64,000 nucleotides of DNA from Rosa chinensis (Eukaryota > Streptophyta > Magnoliopsida > Rosales > Rosaceae), in contig NW_020126832.1 of NCBI RefSeq assembly GCF_002994745.2, positions 124,001 through 188,000 on the forward strand, given 5' to 3'. The notes under the pieces were generated by a model, which saw only the letters and a list, made by a program, of their open reading frames with translations, searched no databases and was not told where the DNA came from. A program made the position numbers and the translations under genes. Within the stretch, counting starts at the first letter, position 1, and every line of letters begins with the position of its first letter. This document shows positions 22,202-44,719 of the stretch, in pieces.

Positions 22202-24501
22202 TGATAGGAGCATTTTAATGCGACGTTTTAACTGCATTTCCCTACATTTTCTGCGTTATTTCCTTAATAAAACTCTGTTTAGGAAAGTTTCCATTCTTTG
22301 AATGGGAAAGTTCCTATTTGTAGAAAGTTTCCATTTTTGTAGTTTCTATTTTTCATTTTTAGAAAGTTTCCCATTTTCAGTTTAGGAAAGTTGCCATTTT
22401 TCATTTTAGGAAAGTTTCTATTTTTCTTATTAGTTTCTATTTTCATGTCCTTGTCACAAATGAGCTGAAATGAGCTCACAAATGGAGAGAGAAGCTAGCC
22501 AACGTCGGAGGGAGACAAGATGAAGTACAAAGGGAAGCACAAATGAGCAGAAATGAAGAAATGAAGCTTTCCTGGTCCAACCAGGAAACCTTGTCCAGAA
22601 AAGGAAAGCTTGCCAAAACAAGACTCTTGAGCCAACCAAGAATGGAGATCGAATTAATGAAGTGACATGGCATGAGAGAAGCTTCTTGAAGACTCTAGAT
22701 GATGACATGGCATAAAGGTGGCGCATGGAGGCCCAAGAACTCTCAAGAGGTTATGGATTTCAGCAAATGGATAAAGGCCCATGGAAATTAGGGTTTGTGA
22801 CACATGAGAGATATTTTTGGAGAATATATATGTGTTTGCCGTAAAATACAAAGAGGAAAAGGAGGAGGCAACATGAAAATCTGAAAATATAATTGAAGAT
22901 TTTGATTGGAGTAATTCAAGGGAGATTTTTAAGGGCAAAGAGATATTCTTGGAAGATTTAAATGTGATTTTTGGCCGAAAATGGTGAAGCAAATCAGCAT
23001 TTATTTATGGAATTTCAGCAATTACTTTCCCAAGGATATTTGTGGCCGAAATTGGTGAAGCAAATCAGAATTTATTTATGGAATTTCGGCAATTACTCTC
23101 TCCTAAGATATTCTTGGCCGAAATTAATGAAGAAAATCAGAAAATCCTTATATAATTTCGGCAAGGATATATATTAAAGGAATTTAGGGAATTAATTTGG
23201 AGAGTTTTGATTGGTTAGATGACACACCAAGGCTTACTTGGCATTCTACGATTGGTTGGACCACATCACAAGGCTTACTTGGCATCATACCATTGGTTGA
23301 AGTGATGTGGAAATTTCTGATTGCTTGGAGAACCCTAGCCGTGCCCCTATATATTCTCCCCTTTTCTCAACGTCAAGGGGTCCTCTCCTTTACATCTTTA
23401 CACTTTAGAAAAAATTCAGAAAAGTTCTTAGCATAGCCGTGAGTTTCTCCATCCTCTAGTCATCTCCACGAGTTCAAGCAAGGCCAAGGGAGAAGAAGAA
23501 TTGCCGTGAGCATCATCCTCCATCACCATCCTTGAAGCTTGCTTTCGAGATTCAAGAGACCACATCCTCAATTCGTTCATCTCATCTTCATCCACGGTGT
23601 AATCCGATTCTCCTTTGTAACCTTTGCTTTGATTTCGTTGGTTTTGTTCTAGTTGACATATGTGTTTGAACAAATATTAATTTCTGGAATTTTTATGATT
23701 AATTGAGAATTTTCAGATTCATATATTGTAATTCGAGAGTTGCTTATGTGAGTTTGTTTAATTAAATTTGAGTTATAGATATCCTTTGTGTATTAATCTT
23801 ATTTGGGTCGACACTTAGAGGGTTTATGCATAATTGTTGCTAGGTTTAAGAACATGAAATCGACTTTTCGTTTTGTGTAAACTTGAATCAAAGTAGTAAA
23901 GGTTTTGGACAAAGATCGAATTTAATTAACGAGGATTGCAATTAGGTGGACTTTTCCATACTAAGTTGTACACTTGAGTTGATAGCCTTTCTCTATGTGT
24001 AATGCGTTGAACATGTTATGATTGACTAGCTTTCTAGGGCTTGAATGCATGTTTGATAGGATTAGTCTTTGTGCTTCCACTTAGATTAATTAGCATTGAA
24101 AAGTAAAATATGGGAAATTGTTTGCTTTTAACGTTTCACATGATCAACTCCTTTCTCATGACTTAGATGAACAATATTAGGGTTTGAATCAATTTTAATC
24201 ATAAGTTTCGGTTTTGATCTTTGTTCTCTCATTCCATTTGTATTTTTATGTTTTTGCATTTTAATTATTTTGTTAACTTAGTTGTATTTTCGAAAACCAA
24301 AAACAAAATCCCCCCTTTTCGTAAATAATGTTTATATTTGTGAATATCTTTGTGAATATTATACTTTGTTTTAATTTTAATTGTTTAATTGTTTGACAAT
24401 GACAGGTGTACCCTCAATCCCCGGAATAGAACGATCCCTATTTACTTATACTACTAATGACATTTCAGGGTTAAATTGGTCGCTTCCCAAAAGCGACATC
24501 A
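22202..24501 (+). mobile_element. Solo LTR of the LARD family, 2300 bp
   Basis: It starts TGATAGGAGCATTTTAATG and ends CCAAAAGCGACATCA, flanked by target duplication ATATT (22197-22201, 24502-24506). Read on the opposite strand, its end matches the LARD LTRs at 32796 and 39858 (for example TTTAACCCTGAAAT and GGGATCGTTCT), with clear divergence. Internal tandem repeats are present: short GGAAAGTTTCCATTTT-like units (about 22280-22440), three units of about 70 bp starting TTGGCCGAAA (about 22970-23165), and two copies of CAAGGCTTACTTGGCAT. No coding capacity. Confidence 0.9.
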
Positions 24502-24506
24502 ATATT

Positions 24507-32543: not shown

Positions 32544-32795
32544 TGATAAAGTAATCTGAGGTTCACATCCAAAACCAATTGGCAATGGATGGAGTGGCCC
32601 AAACCCTTATAAACCCATAGGCAAGGTCCCATTTTTCCCATGTGGGATGTATATATTCTCAACACGCCCCCGCACGTGTGGCGAATTTTCAAGCCATACA
32701 CGTGGACAACTTGGGTGACGTGGAGCCCGTGTGGGGGTTAGGCATGCACACGTGGGTAACCTGGCTTTGATACCATGATAAAGTAATCTGGGGTT

Positions 32796-34845
32796 TGATG
32801 CGCTTTTGGGAAGCGCATAATTTAACCCTGAAATATCGTTAGTAGTATAAGCAAATAGGGATCGTTCTGTCCGGGGATTGAGGGTACACTTGTAATTGTG
32901 AAACAAATAAAGAAAAGTATTATTTACAAAAATAAAATAAAGAATATAAATATATACAATTGTATAAACAAATAAAGAATTAAAATAATAAAGTATTATT
33001 TACAAAAATAAAACAAAGAATAGAAATATATACAAGTAACAAAATAAAAAGGGAGGGGGGTTTAAGAATTATATAATTGAAAATTAAGATAAATAAAATA
33101 AAGAAAATGTAAAAACATATATACAAGGGTGGATCGCAAGGAACAAAGATCAAAATCACATCCATATGCAAGAAATCCAATTACAATTCCTATAGTTGAT
33201 TTTAAATGTCATGAGAGAGGAGTTGATCATGTGAAACATTCGAAAGCAAATGATTTCCCATATTTTACTTTTCAATGCTAATTAACCTAAGCGAAAGCAC
33301 CTAGATTAATCCTATCAAACATGCAATCAAGCCCTAGAAAGCTAGTCAATCATGACATGTTCAACGCATTAGACATAGAGAAAGGCTATCAACTCAAGTG
33401 TACAACTTAGTATGGAAAAGTCCACCTAATTGCAATCCTCTTTAATTAAATTCGGTCTTTGCACAAAACCTTTACTACTTTGATTCAAGTTTACACAAAA
33501 CGAAAAGTCGATTTCATGTTCTTAAACCTAGCACCAATTATATCAAAACCCTAAGTGTTTGCAACCACATAAGATTAAAATACAAAAGTTTTCTATCATG
33601 CAAATTTAATTAAACAAACCCACATAAGCAACATAAAAATCAACATATAGAAATCACAACTTTATCTCAAAACATATAAACGGGCTTTAAACTTTGCCCT
33701 TAACATTATTTGTTAACTAGAATTCATAGTTTTACAAAATCAAACAAAGAAAACAAGAGAAAGGATATAATACACCTTGAAAGATGAATGATAAAGCCTT
33801 GAGACGAAGAACTTGAAGATCCTTGAAAACAAGCAATCTTCTAGGGACGACACAAGGGTGGATGGCGGTTGGGAAATTGATGTATTGCATGGCTTCTCTT
33901 TCTCTTGGCTTGAAAATGAAGAACAAGAAAACTAGAGAATGGAAAAGAAATATGGAGAGGAAATGGAGAGACAAGGAGATGGAATGGATGAAGGAAATGT
34001 GTGATTGAGAGTGAGAGGAGAAGGTGTTTAAATAGGGAAGAAAAAGAAGAGTGAAATGATGAGATGAAGAAAAATAATGAAAGTGGAGTGTGAGAGTGGT
34101 TTGTAAAATATGTAAAAGATGAGGTAATGATGAAAGCAAAGCATGAAAGTGAAGAAATGTGGAAGTGATGATGATCTTTTAGGGTAGAAAAATTGTATCC
34201 AAGGAAAAAGAAATGCTTTCTTCATATGGGTGGGAAACATGAATATGTGGTGTTGAGCTATTTTCAGGTCAGTTTCTTTCCCTTTATTCCTTCAATTATT
34301 TCTCCATCAAAACTTCAGAATGAGCCTTCGACTTCTTCATAAAAAATGTTCCACTATGAGTGTAGATCATCCTCACAAATTTTCAGAGCTTTATTCCATG
34401 TGGTTGGGCCGGAAATGCTGCTGGACCTCTTACAGGTCCAGTTTTCCGGTTTTGCTTCTGTAGAAAATTGGGCTGATTGTTTGAAGGCCTTCCACTCATA
34501 TTTTTCTCTGGCACTCTTCATAAGAAATGATCCTTTGGGTGTCTAGAATGGATCTGGAGAGTTTCAGCTCATTTCGAGTTCATTTGGTCAGGTGGCCGCT
34601 CCTTCTTCCTTGCTTGGCTCTGATTCTCCTAGCCGGAGTAAGAAAATATTCAAGGTTGACTTTTTAGTGCATTTTCATTCTTCTCCATCATTTCTAGGTA
34701 ATTATGGACGTAACACTCATTTCTTCTTCATCTACTCCAATGTACCTAAAAATAGAAATTAAGTTAAAAATCGATTCGTTAAGGAATAACTAAGCAAAAT
34801 GTGAGGAATTAACATTTAAAATATCACATTAAAATGCGCCTATCA
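32796..34845 (-). repeat. LARD 3' LTR
   Basis: 2050 bp. On the minus strand it starts TGATAGGCGCATTTTAATG and ends CAAAAGCGCATCA. The terminal zones match the older solo LTR at 22202-24501. ORFs inside it (for example 135 codons ending at 33732) are low-complexity and are repeated in the other LTR. Confidence 0.95.
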
Positions 34846-36599
34846 AATTCCCCCACACTTAGCTTTTGCTAGTCCCTTAGCAAAACAAAACAAAAAAAAA
34901 TCCAAAACAGAACAAAGACTTGACAAAAAGCAAGTAAATGACTCTATTGCTCCTAACTGTTGTCTCAGAGACTCCAAACTCATGGCTTTCACGTTAAACA
35001 CTTAATCAAAATCACAAAGATAATTCCATGGTTAATAAACCTGTGACATTCATATGACTAAGCAAGATATGGAGAACTTAAGTTATACAGTGAATGATAG
35101 CATGTTTCGAACAAGTCCAATCCAAACTTACAGGGCATACTCTCGATTTTTCTCTCAGAAATGGCTATGCTTAAAAGCTTCACACTCAAGTATATGCAAG
35201 AGAACAAATTGTAAGGCAACAAACAGCTTGCATATTTCATCAATAAACACATTTTGTGAAGAATTTTTAAAGACCTCATGAAATGACTAAGTGCACAAAT
35301 GAACCTAAACCATAAGCTCGACTGCATAACTGACTCCACTAACCAAAGACTGCCCATCTCAAGGATCAAGTCAGCACTTAAAACAGGTTGTAATGGGGCT
35401 AAGCTAGGGTTTTCGAAATGAAGATTAAGGATACAAAAAAAAATCCTAAGGACCTAGCAGAGCATATAAGGACCACCTTATGTCATCATTTTTGTAGACC
35501 AAATATCATTGTTTTGGGCCAAACCTTCACTCTAACCAACATGGGAATGGACAAAGGCATAATTTTCAACTTTGAGCCTTCTACAAATTTGCAAGTCCAA
35601 AACCACACTTCAACATTTTCCCAAGAGTTTTCTTTTCAATTTTTTCTTCTCTTTTGCCGCTTTTTTTTTTTTTTTTTCAAGTCAAAATTTTTTCTTTTCT
35701 TTTTTCTTGGATTTTCCCCACCCCACACTTGTCTTTCATCGTCACCCCTACATACTATGTCATGCTCTACTAAGTCCTTAAGACAAGGGTAGAGATATCT
35801 TGTACTAAGCTCATGGTAGGGTAGTGAGGGTGATGAAACAAAGGTTTTCAACGTAGGCTCAAAGGGGTTCATTCTAAGGAGTCCCACGACGGGCACAATT
35901 GGGGACACATGCTTGTTTGGCTATGGTGGTTACCCTAATACCTTCTATCCTATCCAAGATCAGGGCATATTATGGCATACAAGCTTTGACAGTCACAACA
36001 GCCGAGTTCTAGTACTCTCTAGTCCATTAAAATCTATGGCACATGATCATTGGATTTTCAAAGAAAGATGAGGTTTTGCAAATACAGCCACGAAATTCTA
36101 GAATTATCAATAAGCACTCGAAAAGAAAGTATTTTAGCTCAACAGCTCACTTAGGGTCAAATGAATCAGACTTAATCCTAGCATGCTTAATGAACCAAGT
36201 TACAATCCTATCTCAAATCTTCATACAAGTATCACAACGTCGATTAACCACAGAATTCAATTAAGTCCTATTTTGATTGTGAAAACCTTCAGCCATGAAT
36301 TCGGAGACATGTTCATCCTAGACGTTAGGAGCATCCTAAGACTCAAACACACAAAAACACTCTAAAACCAACTTTTTTTTTTTTTTTTTTTTTTTTACAA
36401 TTTAATTCAATTTCAACACTTAGGTACGGGAACAGGGAGTCTCGATGTGCAATGGGACTGAAACAGCTACCCTTTTTCAAGACTATGTTTAATCCAATAT
36501 ACCTTAGTGTATCACAACATCAACTAAAAACACAATCCAACATCAACTATTTTTCATTTTTTTTTTATATACTAACTACTAAAAACACAATAAAGCAAT
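34846..36599. other. LARD interior, 3' part, non-coding
   Basis: Between the polypurine tract and the first flanking block, no ORF with recognisable protein content is present. Homopolymer runs occur at about 35660-35677 and 36370-36396 (T on the plus strand). The text TTTTGCTAGTCCCTTAGCAAAA is close to a perfect short inverted repeat next to the 3' LTR. Confidence 0.6.
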
Positions 36600-36850
36600 A
36601 ATCCTTCCCCCATAATTAATTCATGCATTGTCCTCAATGTATAAACAAATATAAATCATGCAAAGCATAAATCAAGCATAGAAGAGAAAGTTAACACAAC
36701 GAAACTTAAAACAACTTAAAATTCATGAAAATAAAATAGAAGGAAGAGTTCAAGAAAGCAAATCTGCGTTTGATGGCTCCTCCACAGATACGGTTGAAAT
36801 GGGTTGCCTCCCATGCAGCGCTTAATGTTTAAAGTCTTTCAGCCTAGACT
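36600..36850 (-). repeat. LARD flanking block, copy 1
   Basis: Shared landmarks with 38833-39060 in the same order: CTTCCCCCA, ATTGTCCTCAATGTA (ATTATCCTCAATGTA in copy 2), AGAAAGCAAATCTG, then GGGTTGCCTCCCA and AGCGCTT. The two blocks bracket the ORF pair as direct repeats. CTTCCCCCA is also close to the complement of the polypurine tract next to the 3' LTR. Confidence 0.75.
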
Positions 36851-36861
36851 TGTATCTCCAT

Positions 36862-37392
36862 TTACTCCTTTGGAGGAGCGGTATGCGGGCGAGTGGCAGC
36901 CCTCTTGCTGGTTTCAGCTTCCTGAGGAGGGTCCTCATGGTGTGATGCAGTAGCGTCCTTGCGGGGAAACCCAGGAGGATAACTTTGCAAGTTATTGACT
37001 TCCTGAGCAAGCTTGTTTATTGCAGTGTGACAGCGGATCAAAGAGCAGTTCATCTCAGAGATGTAATCGATCATGCAATTGACTCTCCAATCTGTCACCA
37101 TAATACCATCGCGGAGAGAGGAACGCAAATCATCAATCAAATCTGACAAGCTTTCCAGGGTGGCCATAGGCCGAGGAGCACGAGCAGCTGGTGAGGAAGA
37201 AGACTCTCCGGGATGCAGTCTGGGAGAGCGACGAGGCAGAGGAGGGGGACTGCGGGTACGCTCACGGATAGGACGATGGTCCCATGGACGAGTAAGCCCA
37301 GCTCTAGTGGCCGCTTGACGACCTTCTTCTTCCAAAGAGAGAACACGGTGTTGATTGACGCCCCTGCGAGGGGTAACCTTGGTTCGAGCCAT
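36862..37392 (-). CDS. LARD sense ORF of unknown function, 176 aa
   Basis: An intact ORF in the element's sense direction. I chose the ATG at 37392 (context CCTCATGGCT) over an in-frame ATG at 37431, which would add 13 residues. The N-terminus MARTKVTPRRGVNQ is basic; residues about 45-75 are rich in Arg, Pro and Ser (PPPLPRRSPRL); the middle (about 80-130) looks helical with spaced Leu/Ile (TLESLSDLIDDLRSSL, INKLAQEVNNL); the tail is polar. No zinc knuckle, protease or polymerase motif. I do not recognise the family. It could be an element-encoded accessory or degenerate gag-like RNA-binding protein, judging only by basic composition. It lies divergent to the homeobox ORF, with 591 bp between the starts. 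The first five residues equal those of histone H3 with its initiator Met, probably by chance. Confidence 0.6.
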   Translation of the reverse strand: MARTKVTPRRGVNQHRVLSLEEEGRQAATRAGLTRPWDHRPIRERTRSPPPLPRRSPRLHPGESSSSPAARAPRPMATLESLSDLIDDLRSSLRDGIMVTDWRVNCMIDYISEMNCSLIRCHTAINKLAQEVNNLQSYPPGFPRKDATASHHEDPPQEAETSKRAATRPHTAPPKE

Positions 37393-37983
37393 GAGGAAGT
37401 AGAAGGAATTTGAAACTGCACGCTTAGACAAACCTTAGTAAAATCTGGAGGAGACAAAAAAGGATGTATATGTAAAGCACAAAATAGGGTAGAAATCTCA
37501 ACAGGCACACAGTTTTAACAAAGCTTCTCCGGGAAGGAGAAGAGTTATGACAGTTCACGGCCCAAGAAACTCCCCCACGTGTAAATATTCCTTTCTTTTC
37601 CTGGATTTATGGCATGCTTTCGGCTATAGCTCCTCGAGATTCGTTTGATTCCCCCACGCGTCCTTCTTTTCCTTGATTCACGGCAATTAAACCTGCTTTC
37701 GGCTGTAGCTTGTCTGTCACAGCTCCTCGAGATTCGTTTGGTTCCCCCACGTGTCTTCCACGCGGCAACAGCTTTTCCGTGTTTGCGGGTGACTTTAATC
37801 CAACGCGTAGATTTAATCTCAGAGGTCGTCCATCCAACGGTGGAGATCTGCTCACTCGTTCTATAATTAGGTGCATTCTGAGGGAGCGACTATTCACTCC
37901 AAAAGAAAATTCTTCCGAGTTCCATCCTTTCTCTCTCAACCCTTCAGCCTTTCTTTCGAAACTCCAATCCTTTCTTCATCAAC
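37393..37983. promoter_or_regulatory. Bidirectional promoter-like spacer
   Basis: This interval separates two divergent ORFs. It contains two direct repeats starting TGCTTTCGGCT and sharing CTCCTCGAGATTCGTTTG, at 37615-37663 and 37694-37755, and a third partial copy at about 37569-37612. Each carries a CCCCCACG core; two are perfect G-boxes, CACGTG (37576-37581, 37748-37753), and one is CACGCG (37655-37660). A TATA-like TATAATTA lies at 37862-37869, about 115 bp before the homeobox start, followed by a pyrimidine-rich leader. A weaker candidate on the minus strand is at about 37465-37475. G-boxes bind bZIP and bHLH factors in plants; promoter activity is inferred. Confidence 0.55.
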
Positions 37984-38634
37984 ATGGAACCACAAACTCT
38001 GCAACTAATAGAGCAACAGACCCAGCAACAAATCGAGGATGGAGGAAACAACCAAGCAGCCGGGACTAATAACCGGTGGGCTCCCACACCGCCTCAACTA
38101 AGAATCCTCAAGGGCCTTTACTATGATAAGGGTTTTAAGTACCCAACTCCAGAGCAGATTCAAGAGATCTCCCTCCATCTGAAACAGTATGGGCAGATCG
38201 AGGACAAAAACGTCTTCTTTTGGTTCCAGAACCTCAAGGCTCGTGAGAGGCAGAAGTTGAAGGAATTTCGGAACGTTCCGGTTGGTGGATCTCTCGATCT
38301 CAATTTTGGATCCACTAGTTCTACTGATGATGGTAGATCCATTGATCTAAACTTTGGGTCACGTGTCGGCTATGGTGTTGACCCATATTCCTCCTCACCC
38401 TTCAACACTAATACCAGTACTACCTCCTTTGGCACAACAGGAGGACAATCTTTCATGGAACAACGAGGAGGAGATCACCAGGAGATTGAAACCCTTCCAC
38501 TATTCCCCATGCATGGTGAGGACATCTTTGGCAACATGAAGACTACTTCTGAGGGAGGTAGCGGCTATGGCGATGACTCTCGCATTTCCCTTGAGCTCAG
38601 CCTCAACTCCTACGGAGATGCAGACATGGCTTAG
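37984..38634 (+). CDS. WUS-like: Intronless WUSCHEL-type homeobox protein, 216 aa
   Basis: An uninterrupted ORF, antisense to the LARD that carries it. Residues 31-93 form a WOX homeodomain: RWAPTPPQLRILKGLYYD, then YPTPEQIQEI, LKQYGQIEDKNVFFWFQN and KARERQK, the recognition helix with the WFQN core. Residue 84 is Leu where I recall His in WUS. Residues 170-177, TLPLFPMH, are the WUS box of the WUS clade. ISLELSLNSY (201-210) is an EAR-like repressor motif, and two DLNF motifs (104-107, 121-124) lie in a duplicated SLDLNFGS/SIDLNFGS pair. The N-terminus is Gln-rich. WUS-clade proteins are nuclear transcription regulators of stem-cell fate in meristems. At 216 residues it is somewhat short for WUS. 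Host WUS genes, as I recall, have an intron within the homeobox; none is here, suggesting capture through an RNA copy. ATG context CAACATGGAA is favourable. Function in this copy is untested. Confidence 0.9.
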   Translation: MEPQTLQLIEQQTQQQIEDGGNNQAAGTNNRWAPTPPQLRILKGLYYDKGFKYPTPEQIQEISLHLKQYGQIEDKNVFFWFQNLKARERQKLKEFRNVPVGGSLDLNFGSTSSTDDGRSIDLNFGSRVGYGVDPYSSSPFNTNTSTTSFGTTGGQSFMEQRGGDHQEIETLPLFPMHGEDIFGNMKTTSEGGSGYGDDSRISLELSLNSYGDADMA

Positions 38635-38832
38635 TATTATTATTATTATTATTATATTTTTTTTTTTAAATTTTTTTTTTTTTTTGTAAATAGCTGAATT
38701 TAATAAGACTAAATGAATGCAAATTTTTATTTTTTATATTTTTTTATTTTTTTTATTTTTTTATATAAAGGACTCAAAATAAAAGACAAATATATATATA
38801 AGACTCAAAATGAAAGACAAAAATATAAATCT
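38635..38832. repeat. Low-complexity 3' flank of the homeobox ORF
   Basis: An ATT trinucleotide run (about 38635-38654) and poly(T) stretches follow the stop codon directly. A GTAAATAGCTGAATTTAATAA segment near 38687-38707 could act as a plant polyadenylation region, but this is a guess. Confidence 0.55.
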
Positions 38833-39060
38833 CTTCCCCCACACTTAAATATTGCATTATCCTCAATGTAATCAATTAAAAGCATGCAATGTAATAAGTA
38901 AGCATAGATAGAAGACATTTACGAAAACAAATCCTAAAATAAAAACTAAAGAGAAAAATTGAAAAATAAAAAGAAATAGGGAAAGAGAAAGCAAATCTGA
39001 TTTGCATGGGTTGCCTCCCAAGTAGCGCTTGTATTTTACGTCTTGCAGCCAGACGGTACC
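38833..39060 (-). repeat. LARD flanking block, copy 2
   Basis: Starts CTTCCCCCACACTTA and ends with GGTTGCCTCCCAAGTAGCGC and the region to about 39060. It is the partner of the block at 36600-36850; together they bracket the two ORFs. Confidence 0.75.
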
Positions 39061-39857
39061 TACATTAAATAAAGTTAGTAACTATAATTAACAAAGAAAT
39101 ACAAAATAAAAACAAGTATAACTATTAATTACAAACTACAAGTATAATTAACAAGTATATTGTACATAAGACACAAGTTAAGTACTCAAGTGAGTATAAA
39201 ACGTGAAAAGTATTTTTACAAGTTTAAAGTGTGAAACAACAAAATAATTTACACGTATAGAGTATTCACAAGTATTTCTTTTGTTATAAACATTATTGAT
39301 ATCGAATCAAATTCCAATCGGTAAATCAAGTGGACGTGCGGCCCAAGTATAATCGCCTAGACACAAACTCCCTTTCAAATCTTTTGGGCAACCTTACTGA
39401 AATGGCCAGGTAGGGGAGGACGAACACGAGAGGAAAAATCCATTTTGGCATGAGCTACTCCCACATAGTGGTTTAGGCCCATTTGCAAGCACTTCTGGAT
39501 TCAAAAACCCGTCATGAACGTTGTCCCCTTCCTAGACACCATTTCACATAGGCTTTCTTACTAAGATGAAAAAGTTCATAAGTGTGAAGACAGTTCAACA
39601 AGTGTTAATAAAGGCCGCCCTCAACCTTAAGGGACCTGAGCTAGGTACCAATAAGGGGTTTAGGCCAATATTAACAAAAGAGACTTCACCTATTCCTCTC
39701 AATTTACAACCTACAATTAAAATTCATGTTCAATAATATAAATAATATCCTAGTTAATTTAAACTAAGTTTCAAACAATTTATATACAATAAATATATAC
39801 AATAAATGACACAATTTAGCAAGTGATTTTTCAATCCCCGGCAACGGCGCCAAAAAT
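39061..39857 (-). other. LARD leader and primer-binding site
   Basis: Non-coding leader between the 5' LTR and the first flanking block. The minus-strand primer-binding site TGGCGCCGTTGCCGGGG lies at 39852-39836, five bases from the LTR. No splice or coding signal recognised. Confidence 0.75.
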
Positions 39858-41902
39858 TGATGCGCTTTTGGGAAGCGCATAATTTAACCCTGAAATATCG
39901 TTAGTAGTATAAGCAAATAGGGATCGTTCTGTCCGGGGATTGAGGGTACACTTGTAATTGTGAAACAAATAAAGAAAAGTATTATTTACAAAAATAAAAT
40001 AAAGAATATAAATATATACAATTGTATAAACAAATAAAGAATTAAATAATAAAGTATTATTTACAAAAATAAAACAAAGAATAGAAATATATACAAGTAA
40101 CAAAATAAAAAGGGAGGGGGGTTTAAGAATTATATAATTGAAAATTAAGATAAATAAAATAAAGAAAATGTAAAACATATATACAAGGTGGATCGCAAGG
40201 AACAAAGATCAAAATCACATCCATATGCAAGAAATCCAATTACAATTCCTATAGTTGATTTTAAATGTCATGAGAGAGGAGTTGATCATGTGAAACATTC
40301 GAAAGCAAATGATTTCCCATATTTTACTTTTCAATGCTAATTAACCTAAGCGAAAGCACCTAGATTAATCCTATCAAACATGCAATCAAGCCCTAGAAAG
40401 CTAGTCAATCATGACATGTTCAACGCATTAGACATAGAGAAAGGCTATCAACTCAAGTGTACAACTTAGTATGGAAAAGTCCACCTAATTGCAATCCTCT
40501 TTAATTAAATTCGGTCTTTGCACAAAACCTTTACTACTTTGATTCAAGTTTACACAAAACGAAAAGTCGATTTCATGTTCTTAAACCTAGCACCAATTAT
40601 ATCAAAACCCTAAGTGTTTGCAACCACATAAGATTAAAATACAAAAGTTTTCTATCATGCAAATTTAATTAAACAAACCCACATAAGCAACATAAAAATC
40701 AACATATAGAAATCACAACTTTATCTCAAAACATATAAACGGGCTTTAAACTTTGCCCTTAACATTATTTGTTAACTAGAATTCATAGTTTTACAAAATC
40801 AAACAAAGAAAACAAGAGAAAGGATATAATACACCTTGAAAGATGAATGATAAAGCCTTGAGACGAAGAACTTGAAGATCCTTGAAAACAAGCAATCTTC
40901 TAGGGACGACACAAGGGTGGATGGCGGTTGGGAAATTGATGTATTGCATGGCTTCTCTTTCTCTTGGCTTGAAAATGAAGAACAAGAAAACTAGAGAATG
41001 GAAAAGAAATATGGAGAGGAAATGGAGAGACAAGGAGATGGAATGGATGAAGGAAATGTGTGATTGAGAGTGAGAGGAGAAGGTGTTTAAATAGGGAAGA
41101 AAAAGAAGAGTGAAATGATGAGATGAAGAAAAATAATGAAAGTGGAGTGTGAGAGTGGTTTGTAAAATATGTAAAAGATGAGGTAATGATGAAAGCAAAG
41201 CATGAAAGTGAAGAAATGTGGAAGTGATGATGATCTTTTAGGGTAGAAAAATTGTATCCAAGGAAAAGAAATGCTTTCTTCATATGGGTGGGAACATGAA
41301 TATGTGGTGTTGAGCTATTTTCAGGTCAGTTTCTTTCCCTTTATTCCTTCAATTATTTCTCCATCAAAACTTCAGAATGAGCCTTCGACTTCTTCATAAA
41401 AAATGTTCCACTATGAGTGTAGATCATCCTCACAAATTTTCAGAGCTTTATTCCATGTGGTTGGGCCGGAAATGCTGCTGGACCTCTTACAGGTCCAGTT
41501 TTCCGGTTTTGCTTCTGTAGAAAATTGGGCTGATTGTTTGAAGGCCTTCCACTCATATTTTTCTCTGGCACTCTTCATAAGAAATGATCCTTTGGGTGTC
41601 TAGAATGGATCTGGAGAGTTTCAGCTCATTTCGAGTTCATTTGGTCAGGTGGCCGCTCCTTCTTCCTTGCTTGGCTCTGATTCTCCTAGCCGGAGTAAGA
41701 AAATATTCAAGGTTGACTTTTTAGTGCATTTTCATTCTTCTCCATCATTTCTAGGTAATTATGGACGTAACACTCATTTCTTCTTCATCTACTCCAATGT
41801 ACCTAAAAATAGAAATTAAGTTAAAAATCGATTCGTTAAGGAATAACTAAGCAAAATGTGAGGAATTAACATTTAAAATATCACATTAAAATGCGCCTAT
41901 CA
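39858..41902 (-). repeat. LARD 5' LTR
   Basis: 2045 bp. Compared with the 3' LTR it lacks single bases in five A or G runs (near 40046, 40171, 40189, 41266 and 41293) and otherwise reads the same by eye. Confidence 0.95.
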
Positions 41903-42008
41903 GGGTTCACATCCAAAACCAATTGGTAATGGATGAAGTGGCCCAAACCCTTATAAACTCATAGGCAAGGTCCCATTTTTCCCATGTGGGATGTATATAT
42001 TCTCAACA

Positions 42009-42600: not shown

Positions 42601-44719
42601 TCAAACCCAATATCCATTGATTGGTGAAGAGTGGCAAATGGTCTGCACGCCAACACCAAGGAAATCCCTAGTCTGCCCTCCTCCGGCGCTCTCTTCGCTC
42701 TGTATGTGGCGGCGTTTCGCTTGATGCATGTGCAGTAGATGATCATGAGCTCCTGGGTTCTCCACAGTGCCATAGAGTCCACAAACTTTGCTCCCATCTT
42801 GAACTTGAATCACTGCTTGACTAGCACTACTAGTAATATTGTTGTTGTTGCACTTCAATCCAAAACTTCCAAGCAGTGATGACGTGTCAGTTGAAGTTGC
42901 ACCAATTTGGGCTGCCTTTTGCAACAAAGCTGTGGCTGACATATTTGCTGAAGGCGTTTGATGTGTGTACAAGAAGGAAGTGAGCTAGCAGCACTAGTGC
43001 TTGTGATTGTTAACTGATCTTGATGATGAGCATTGTTTGATGTAGAAAGCTTGTTATTACTTCCAAGACCCAATTCAGTTGATAATGATCAGAAGGCGGA
43101 GGAGGCACTGAACACGAAACACTAATGTTATTAGGATCACCAAATATTGAACCAGCTGATGAACTCACAGACCCAAGTTGATGGTGATGATGCTGATTAT
43201 TAACAGTCATTTCTTCGTGGGTGCTGTTGGATCCCTGTCCCATCCAAAGAGATAGACCGCGGGTATTTTGGCTCACGGTGTCAGGGGTATCATTGCTGGA
43301 GATTGGTTTAAAAATAGAAGAAAATTGTAGTTGGGGCATGTTCGGAGGTCCTAGTAGTAGTGAAGATGCATTATTTCCCATGTAGTGATGATAGTTGATA
43401 TTACTGGGCATTGCATTGTTGTGGATGTTGGATACTGCATTTACTCTAGCTGTTTCTTCAGCTAAGGCATCACAGAAGGCCCGGTGTGTGATGAAGCTAT
43501 CACGCCTGCCCAGCAATGAAAATGCATATTGTTAAGAAATTTAAGACAATCAATTTTGACATTTAATTATCTTAATGTGATCTAAATAAATTAATGGTAG
43601 GAAAACAGAAAAACAAATATATCTCAATATTGGTTGAAAATGCTTTAACTCCTTGTCTTCAAGAAAACAAAAATGAACAATATTGTCAGACATTATCCCC
43701 ATATATAGATGGAGATCAACAACTTAAGATGATCTAAGATAGAAGGTAAAATATATCAGGAAGAAAATAAAGCAGACATCTATCCTATCATACATAGCCA
43801 CAAAATCACTGTCATGCTTTTATATATGTTTTTTCCTTCATTTATTTGTTTGAGGTGTTTGGTTTCTTGCTGTTCATCAAACAAAAATTTGTCAAACAGA
43901 CAAACATATTGCAGCCACAAAACCCACCTTTATTTATAATTTCTTCTTCAACTAGATTTGCGATCTACTTGCGTCCATAATTTCTTCTTCATTTGGAAAT
44001 ATATAAATTTTAATAATAGCAAAGAAATTATGGACGCAAGTAGAAACATATTGCAACCACAAAACCAACCTTTATTTATAATTTCTTCTTCATTTGCAAT
44101 AACTGAATTAATTACCGTGAAAATAGAGTTCCGCAGTCACATTTGTACTCCCTAGTGCCACAGGTCTTTGAGTGAGCTTTCCAATCCGACTGCACCGCGT
44201 ACCGCTTGGAGCACTTCTCACACTTCCACTTCTTCTCGCCATGCTTGCGGCAGAAGTGCTTCTTTATTCCGGTCAGATCTCCGAGCGCCCTAGACGGGTG
44301 GTGGTGGACGCAACTCTTTTCCGGGCACACGTAGACGCGCTTCCTCGGCTCTTTGCTTGTTCTTTGCTTGAGCTTCCATGGAAGGTTGTGTCCACGGCGG
44401 TGCAGCTGTAGGTTTTGGTCTCTCTGAAATCCCTTACCACATATTTCACACAAGAATCTGTTGGTGGCCATCAGAGTCTTTGGAGACAAGGCTATTACTT
44501 CAGCCTCAGGATCTGAAACAAATATACATACTTGGAATCAATATTAACAATTCGATAATTATGAATCCGAACGAAGATTAAACTTGCCTGGGTTTCCTGG
44601 GAGGTTTCTCTTCTTTTTGACAGAGGAGGATTGGATCCAAGTACCGCAACTGGGTTTTGAAGAAACCCATTTGAGTTAATTGCTTCTTCTTCATGAGCCA
44701 TATTGATCTTCTCCAACAT
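42601..44719 (-). CDS. IDD: IDD-type C2H2 zinc-finger transcription factor (frameshifted copy)
   Basis: Three coding exons: 44719-44588, 44512-44116 and 43505-42601. Exon 2 starts DPEAEVIALSPKTLMATNRF and holds the INDETERMINATE domain: finger 1 CEICGKGFQRDQNLQLHRRG plus H, finger 2 from CPEKSCVHHHPSRALGDL, finger 3 CEKCSKRYAVQSDWKAHSK, and finger 4 CDCGTLFSR, completed in exon 3 by RDSFITHRAFC. The C-terminal IDD motifs MSATALLQKAAQ and TRDFLGVG are in exon 3. IDD proteins are plant nuclear DNA-binding regulators, several acting with GRAS partners. Intron phases match across both junctions; intron 1 has a GC donor (CAG|GCAAGT). Three breaks are visible: two extra bases in exon 1 near 44622-44630 before the KKKRNLPGNP motif, and single-base shifts near 43075 and 42975. 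These may be decay or assembly indels. The start could be the ATG at 44719 or at 44701. Confidence 0.85.
43506..44115 (-). other. IDD intron 2 with hairpin and duplication
   Basis: The 610-bp intron has donor ACG|GTAATT and acceptor GGGCAG. It contains a perfect 22-bp inverted repeat (43966-43987 and 44022-44043, core TTGCGTCCATAATTTCTT) with a 34-bp loop, inside a direct duplication (about 43904-43952 and 44044-44092, both with CCTTTATTTATAATTTCTTC). Confidence 0.85.

Follow-up and report, generated by a model that had tools for sequence, protein, structure and literature searches.

How does a WUSCHEL-type homeobox reading frame come to lie inside an LTR retrotransposon of rose, and why is it kept there? 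The stretch of DNA analysed here, 64 kb long and called the window below, lies on contig C33 of the rose genome (515 Mb; C-numbers denote its contigs and L-numbers the loci compared). We propose that a captured, spliced WUS became an antisense accessory gene of Ty3 elements and was kept because its protein helps the element, a reading that we consider probable.

The WUSCHEL-bearing element

The element and its cargo comprise the following features:

32791..32795, unstranded: TSD GGGTT, left copy (sequence read)
32796-41902, minus strand: WUSCHEL-bearing LTR element, 9.1 kb, TSD GGGTT
32796..34845, minus strand: 3' LTR in the element's own orientation (LTR pair alignment)
34846..34858, minus strand: polypurine-tract-like GTGTGGGGGAATT adjoining the LTR (sequence read)
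36862..37431, minus strand: sense ORF (ORF189), 189 aa if started at TTG, 176 aa if started at ATG
37828..37904, plus strand: promoter-like block 5' of the WUS ATG; TATAATTA lies at 37862
37984..38634, plus strand: 216-aa ORF derived from WUSCHEL, without introns, in antisense orientation to the element
38074..38262, plus strand: homeodomain, recognition helix WFQNLKARERQK (host L009 has WFQNHKARERQK)
38491..38514, plus strand: WUS box TLPLFPMH, residues 170-177 (read from the translation)
38590..38604, plus strand: EAR-like LELSL, residues 203-207 (read from the translation)
39836..39852, minus strand: PBS-like TGGCGCCGTTGCCGGGG, identical in L121-L124
39858..41902, minus strand: 5' LTR in the element's own orientation (LTR pair alignment)
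41903..41907, unstranded: TSD GGGTT, right copy (sequence read)

Paired LTRs, a 5-bp TSD, a PBS and a PPT mark this unit as an LTR retrotransposon. Its LTRs (32796-34845 versus 39858-41902) are 99.76% identical, with 0 mismatches and 5 gap openings. Since the PBS-like sequence lies on the minus strand, directly inside one LTR, the WUSCHEL ORF on the plus strand, located toward the PBS end, is antisense to the element. LTR alignment, TSD and PBS thus bear out what the sequence-only reading had described, a 216-codon frame antisense within a 9.1-kb element with near-identical LTRs. The PBS is presumably of the tRNA-Asp type; a tRNA search made to check it found no tRNA genes in the 64-kb window. 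The ORF list shows no gag-pol-sized ORF in the window element (the Pfam scan covered two ORFs). ORF189, for which no Pfam family was matched, is open in 9 of the 11 loci compared, L001 and L002 among them being the window's own insertion; it has 6 homologues, and the organism is named for two of these, both Rosa chinensis.

Several neighbours of the element can be recorded. A truncated inverted piece of the window LTR family, 89-91% identical to the window LTR, lies at 23739-24506. Beside the element, a 105-nt direct repeat (97%) at 32560-32664 and 41904-42008, which TTTGATACCA adjoins, is perhaps part of another small element. A BIRD-IDD zinc-finger gene (43010-44489, minus strand; PF22996/PF22995/PF22992) lies ∼1.1 kb past the right end of the element, and the ORF between them (42601-42972, minus strand) has no Pfam match.

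The cargo protein

Pfam recognises a homeodomain in the 216-aa ORF (PF00046, E=9.4e-12), and the closest solved structure to its protein is Arabidopsis WUSCHEL (6ry3, E=4.7e-22). Residues T170, L171, L173, F174 and P175 of the WUS box are invariant across 22 proteins, as are L203, E204, L205 and L207 of LELSL, which we take to be an EAR-like motif. The Pfam hit, the structural match and the translation confirm the WOX homeodomain, TLPLFPMH and LELSL first noticed in this ORF, so that the cargo carries these marks of the WUSCHEL clade. It is not, however, the complete WUS-clade gene it had been called: about 70 middle residues are absent relative to host WUS, and the likeness to host WUS stops at about residue 289 of the 296 of the Fragaria protein. 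In the AlphaFold model of the cargo protein confidence is limited to the homeodomain (pLDDT ∼90 there, overall mean 57), whose predicted form matches that of the WUS homeodomain bound to DNA (6ryd; E=1.8e-06, rmsd 1.2). As homeodomain, WUS box and EAR-like motif are all kept, the protein would most likely act as a nuclear DNA-binding co-repressor.

The promoter-like block (∼77 bases) has a TATA-like box 122 bases before the ATG. It resembles the element-side sequence upstream of WUS in L011 (79%), L010 (76%) and L026 (80%), and a TATA-like box is present in all three; the pattern used found none in L030 and L035, though both align to the block. This suggests that block and gene moved together. 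The protein may be made from the antisense strand of the element, perhaps by way of this block.

We also considered regulation of the LTRs by WUS itself and rejected it, as TGAATGAA and TTAATGG, which we take to be WUS motifs, are absent from the LTRs and show no enrichment across the window.

Capture of a spliced transcript

Aligned to the rose host gene (L009), the WUS protein of Fragaria falls into three exons (residues 1-131, 131-168 and 168-296). Both introns of rose WUS thus lie 3' of the homeobox, and not within it as the sequence-only reading had assumed. The intron comparison that it proposed gave a clear answer: in L011 the exons are fused exactly where L009 carries introns. Both host introns are missing from the cargo, which indicates that a spliced transcript was captured.

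A 5' junction of host likeness ∼220 nt before the ATG is common to L011, L026, L030 and L035 (4 of 14 sequences), with the junction piece rearranged in the last three. Of 21 loci aligned with L009, 10 have their 3' junction at host positions 2715-2717, ∼20 nt short of the stop codon of the host gene; in the remaining loci the host alignment begins later or stops at 2634-2641. The data support a shared capture. From these junctions we infer that a Ty3-type LTR retrotransposon took up the spliced WUSCHEL mRNA of a rose ancestor, most likely in a single event, and that the captured piece was rearranged later.

Related elements and exchange of the cargo

Loci L081 and L082 carry RT, RNase H and integrase on one strand (RVT_1 and rve domains in Pfam) and WUS on the opposite strand after pol. 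The pol region falls into several ORFs in L081; in L082 it is interrupted, and the WUS homeodomain there contains a stop as well, so that any activity of these gag-pol relatives would be putative. In L080 a second type of gag and protease domains precedes WUS, which is again antisense; L079 resembles L080 by eye and in its flanks, and its ORF has no Pfam match. The two element types may be Athila-like and Tat-like, Athila elements being marked by a lineage-specific RT and a tRNA-Asp PBS. In L081, the counterpart of window positions 38453-39066 (the end of WUS and what follows) reaches to the point where the pol ORF ends, and on this match the window element looks like a pol-less relative. The WUS cassette is now found in Ty3 elements of two types and, it seems, in derivatives that lack pol. 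The window element, an example of the latter, would have to move by gag-pol supplied in trans and appears to have inserted very recently.

The sequence-only reading held that a WUS transcript had been captured by this LARD, which now spreads the gene. Capture and spread stand (introns gone, TSDs, 29 of 38 copies intact), but this LARD is unlikely to have been the first captor, because gag-pol loci and a second element type also carry the gene.

In L024, L031 and L034 the backbone is 2-5% from that of the window, yet the WUS ORF is 10-16% different. When 91 ORFs were sorted by four modules (window and twin both counted; L095 and L103 left out as places already represented), all four combinations were seen in 4 of 6 module pairs. 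Together, these observations show that the cargo has been shuffled between elements.

Copies in the rose genome

A genome search with the 216-residue protein, suggested by the sequence-only reading, matched at least 150 places, among them that of the window and its twin. At least 141 of them cover at least 215 of the 216 residues, and 131 of these 141 have no stop; 150 of 703 candidates were scored, so all these counts are lower bounds. Relatives among the matches listed in a protein search (120 of 299) are named as Rosa chinensis (many) and Rosa rugosa.

Five places were read for paired LTRs and TSDs, namely the window and L121-L124, and they represent four distinct insertions. L121 (C2, 43.78 Mb) is the same element as that of the window, and ∼200 bases of flank are identical on either side, so that a single insertion stands twice in the assembly. 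This C33/C2 pair, an unplaced haplotig or duplicate, is therefore counted twice among the copies. The insertions at L122, L123 and L124 are separate ones: their TSDs read ATAGT, GCTAC and CTACA, and each shares the PBS of the window element. LTR mismatches in the aligned pieces number 0 in L122, 1 in L123 and 6 in L124 (0 in L121), and such small numbers indicate recent transposition.

For a sample unbiased by coding sequence, 38 copies (L083-L120; window and twin left out) were picked by non-coding DNA with window positions 38850-39850 as a probe, 40 of 2856 candidates being scored. An intact ORF (195-228 aa) is present in 29 of them; 3 have an in-frame stop, 2 are partial and 4 have no WUS in the region read. 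Despite the stop, each of these three copies can be aligned from end to end in a single frame, and none of the 32 copies with a full-length match is frame-shifted. Indels of 1, 2, 4, 7, 8 and 14 nt occur in the element flanks compared. The other copies are thus by no means all broken, and those read whole are element insertions rather than a normal host WOX locus brought next to LTRs by misassembly.

Selection on the protein

How the loci were chosen matters for reading the tests below: protein score decided the choice of L001-L008 and L039-L078, and homeodomain score that of L009-L038 and L125-L144; only L083-L120 were picked by non-coding DNA. One comparison set comprised 50 loci, with L051 dropped for a stop. 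In the codon models omega was set on a grid and lnL compared; recombination violates the one-tree assumption behind these fits.

For the unbiased sample, with 30 intact copies that include the window, lnL was -2116.37 at omega 0.7 versus -2120.20 at 1, and without L104 the values were -1930.29 and -1933.10. Homeodomains of 24 more diverged loci gave -1573.90 (omega 0.6), -1575.41 (0.4), -1582.21 (0.3) and -1582.89 (1), so that 0.3 fits no better than 1; this set was drawn from the best matches to the Arabidopsis homeodomain, a choice that favours conservation, with 7 stops in 6 loci masked and element membership shown for only some. Between the homeodomains of the window and L082 dN is 0.150 and dS 0.771 (dN/dS 0.19), and between host and window dN/dS is 0.17.

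The fitted model was ∼2.3 lnL better than omega 1 (kappa 5) for protein-chosen window-type copies. Shared variants carried amino-acid changes no less often than singletons (28 N:13 S versus 44:33, p=0.32; L095, the same place as L040, dropped), and homeodomains of the unbiased sample showed 4 N:5 S (p 0.04-0.11). Homeodomain types H1 and H2 are separated by 12.5-13.5 amino-acid and 6.5-7.5 silent changes (dN/dS 0.39-0.50). Within H2 the ratio was 11 N:15 S (p 0.005 to 0.00006), in loci picked by similar homeodomain score, so we do not use it as main evidence. Fourteen of the 20 loci in the H2 comparison are intact and five are shortened (L131, L132, L142, L143 and L144); L126, of another type, is truncated where the sequence compared ends. 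An excess of silent changes in 22 pairs against the null (p=0.0005) comes from loci that were protein-chosen and pre-filtered for intact ORFs. For the same pre-filtering, the count of 1 stop versus 5.2 expected was discarded as circular.

The comparison of dN/dS among copies that had been proposed was thus answered in part: omega below 1 does fit better, but the signal is mild and carries the sampling and recombination caveats given above. It supports a mild constraint on the cargo protein during the life of the element lineages, with omega at ∼0.5-0.7.

Possible reasons why the cargo is kept

A mild signal could also be expected of a WUS copy that has no role for the element, with frames intact since the copies are young and a codon signal that reflects few source lineages, recombination and locus choice. 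LTR pairs of the window, L121 (the same insertion), L122 and L123 have just 0, 0, 0 and 1 mismatches, several tests gave a weak or absent signal (2.3 lnL; 28:13 versus 44:33; 4 N:5 S), and 2 of 20 H2-type ORFs (L131 and L132) end early as if frame-shifted. Expression points the same way: Duan et al. 2024 (PMC11405225) report 381 WOX genes for Rosa chinensis, 364 of them in rose-only clades, and found 359 of these 364 almost silent in rooting stems. It is harder to reconcile a passenger with the preference for omega below 1 both in the sample chosen by non-coding DNA (3.8 lnL) and in the diverged homeodomains (9 lnL), with the low dN/dS (0.19) at a dS of 0.77 between window and L082, and with the lack of frame shifts in all 32 full-length unbiased copies while the flanks carry indels of 1 to 14 nt. 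We therefore regard this explanation as rather unlikely, though the most serious of the rivals.

Under the preferred explanation, by which the captured WUSCHEL was turned into an antisense accessory gene, element lineages would keep it because it is helpful, probably through transcription in cells that lead to the germ line. A more specific version is that the elements turn the captured stem-cell factor on the plant's stem-cell niche: made within or close to the meristems of shoot and flower, antisense WUS would promote stem-cell identity or make it last longer, or would activate transcription there, so that new copies reach the germ line. This version seems to us improbable as it stands; were it true, the element would be to retrotransposons what an oncogene is to viruses, and the rose WOX genes, which number in the hundreds, would mostly belong to elements.

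The antisense transcript and not the protein might be what matters, with double-stranded RNA regulating the element or host WUS. WUS is indeed antisense in four other loci read over 9.9 kb, from two element types, and such a role was raised for antisense ORFs generally by Vicient and Casacuberta 2020 (PMC7264820); it does not, however, predict constraint at the codon level, and we hold it to be very improbable. Ordinary expansion of host WOX genes through duplication, whether of segments or of the whole genome, with LTRs that lie close by coincidence or through misassembly, can practically be dismissed: whole-genome duplication was suggested by Duan et al. 2024 (PMC11405225), but the same paper reports no collinear genes, the cargo lacks both host introns, and four distinct insertions with their own TSDs around the same structure contradict it for the copies read.

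The rose WOX family

WUS-carrying retrotransposons are very probably the cause of the 381-gene WOX expansion in rose. PMC11405225, which also counts 170 WOX genes in R. multiflora and 105 in R. rugosa, states that more evidence on the cause is needed and invokes whole-genome duplication, where we see the spread of an element. Motifs of its clades IV and V match the cargo and its variants by eye, and the family resides mostly on chromosome 2, like most cargo places listed here. Neither 'transpos' nor 'LTR' occurs in the main text of that paper, and 'WUS' and 'WOX' are absent from the main text of the rose genome paper of Hibrand Saint-Oyant 2018. Our literature search (titles, starts of abstracts and some passages, mostly of open-access papers) found no link of rose WOX genes to a transposable element. 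A published puzzle, in which 381 genes stood without an explained cause, is thus very probably resolved; lists of rose WOX genes, like studies of their expression, would then combine genes of the host with genes of elements.

Comparison with known systems

Antisense additional ORFs are known in the Ty3 elements Retand, Grande, RIRE2 and PvRetro13, and WUS in L081 and L082 is likewise antisense after pol; a regulatory, DNA-binding role has been proposed for the known ones in PMC11963269 and PMC7264820. These known ORFs encode TRP28, SMC and similar domains whose origin was not traced, whereas the cargo here comes from an identified host gene. The TRP28 domain (PF04195) is absent here, as Pfam gave only PF00046 in the WUS ORF and nothing in ORF189. 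The main text of PMC11963269 contains no occurrence of 'homeo', 'WUS' or 'WOX'. Since both the source protein and the DNA sites that it binds are known, rose makes it possible to test what antisense accessory genes do in Ty3 elements of plants.

Ty3 elements of orchids that carry an AlkB-type demethylase (PMC9289625) likewise fixed a host-type domain as an extra ORF, proposed to be helpful, and the same paper reports a B3 transcription-factor domain in Aegilops tauschii elements. The orchid cargo is an RNA demethylase tested in vitro; that of rose is a homeodomain protein. 'Homeo', 'Rosa' and 'WUS' have 0 occurrences in the main text of PMC9289625. Maize Bs1 resembles the rose case in that a host transcript lies inside an LTR element, and transduced genes are usually in the gag-pol sense and present in one or few copies (PMC7264820). 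The rose cargo differs from transduced genes such as Bs1 in being antisense and in occupying well over a hundred places.

Two further observations concern the distribution of copies. Pairs of WUS copies on one strand lie ∼7.0-7.3 kb apart at C33:12973/20080, C3:1455964/1462992 and C2:69354242/69361548, a spacing as expected of tandem elements with a shared LTR. WOX homeodomains of another type, with QNHRARERQKRR or QNYRARERQKRR, lie within 0.1 Mb at C3:2.16-2.26 Mb (L019, L021, L023 and L029), the match of L021 including one stop.
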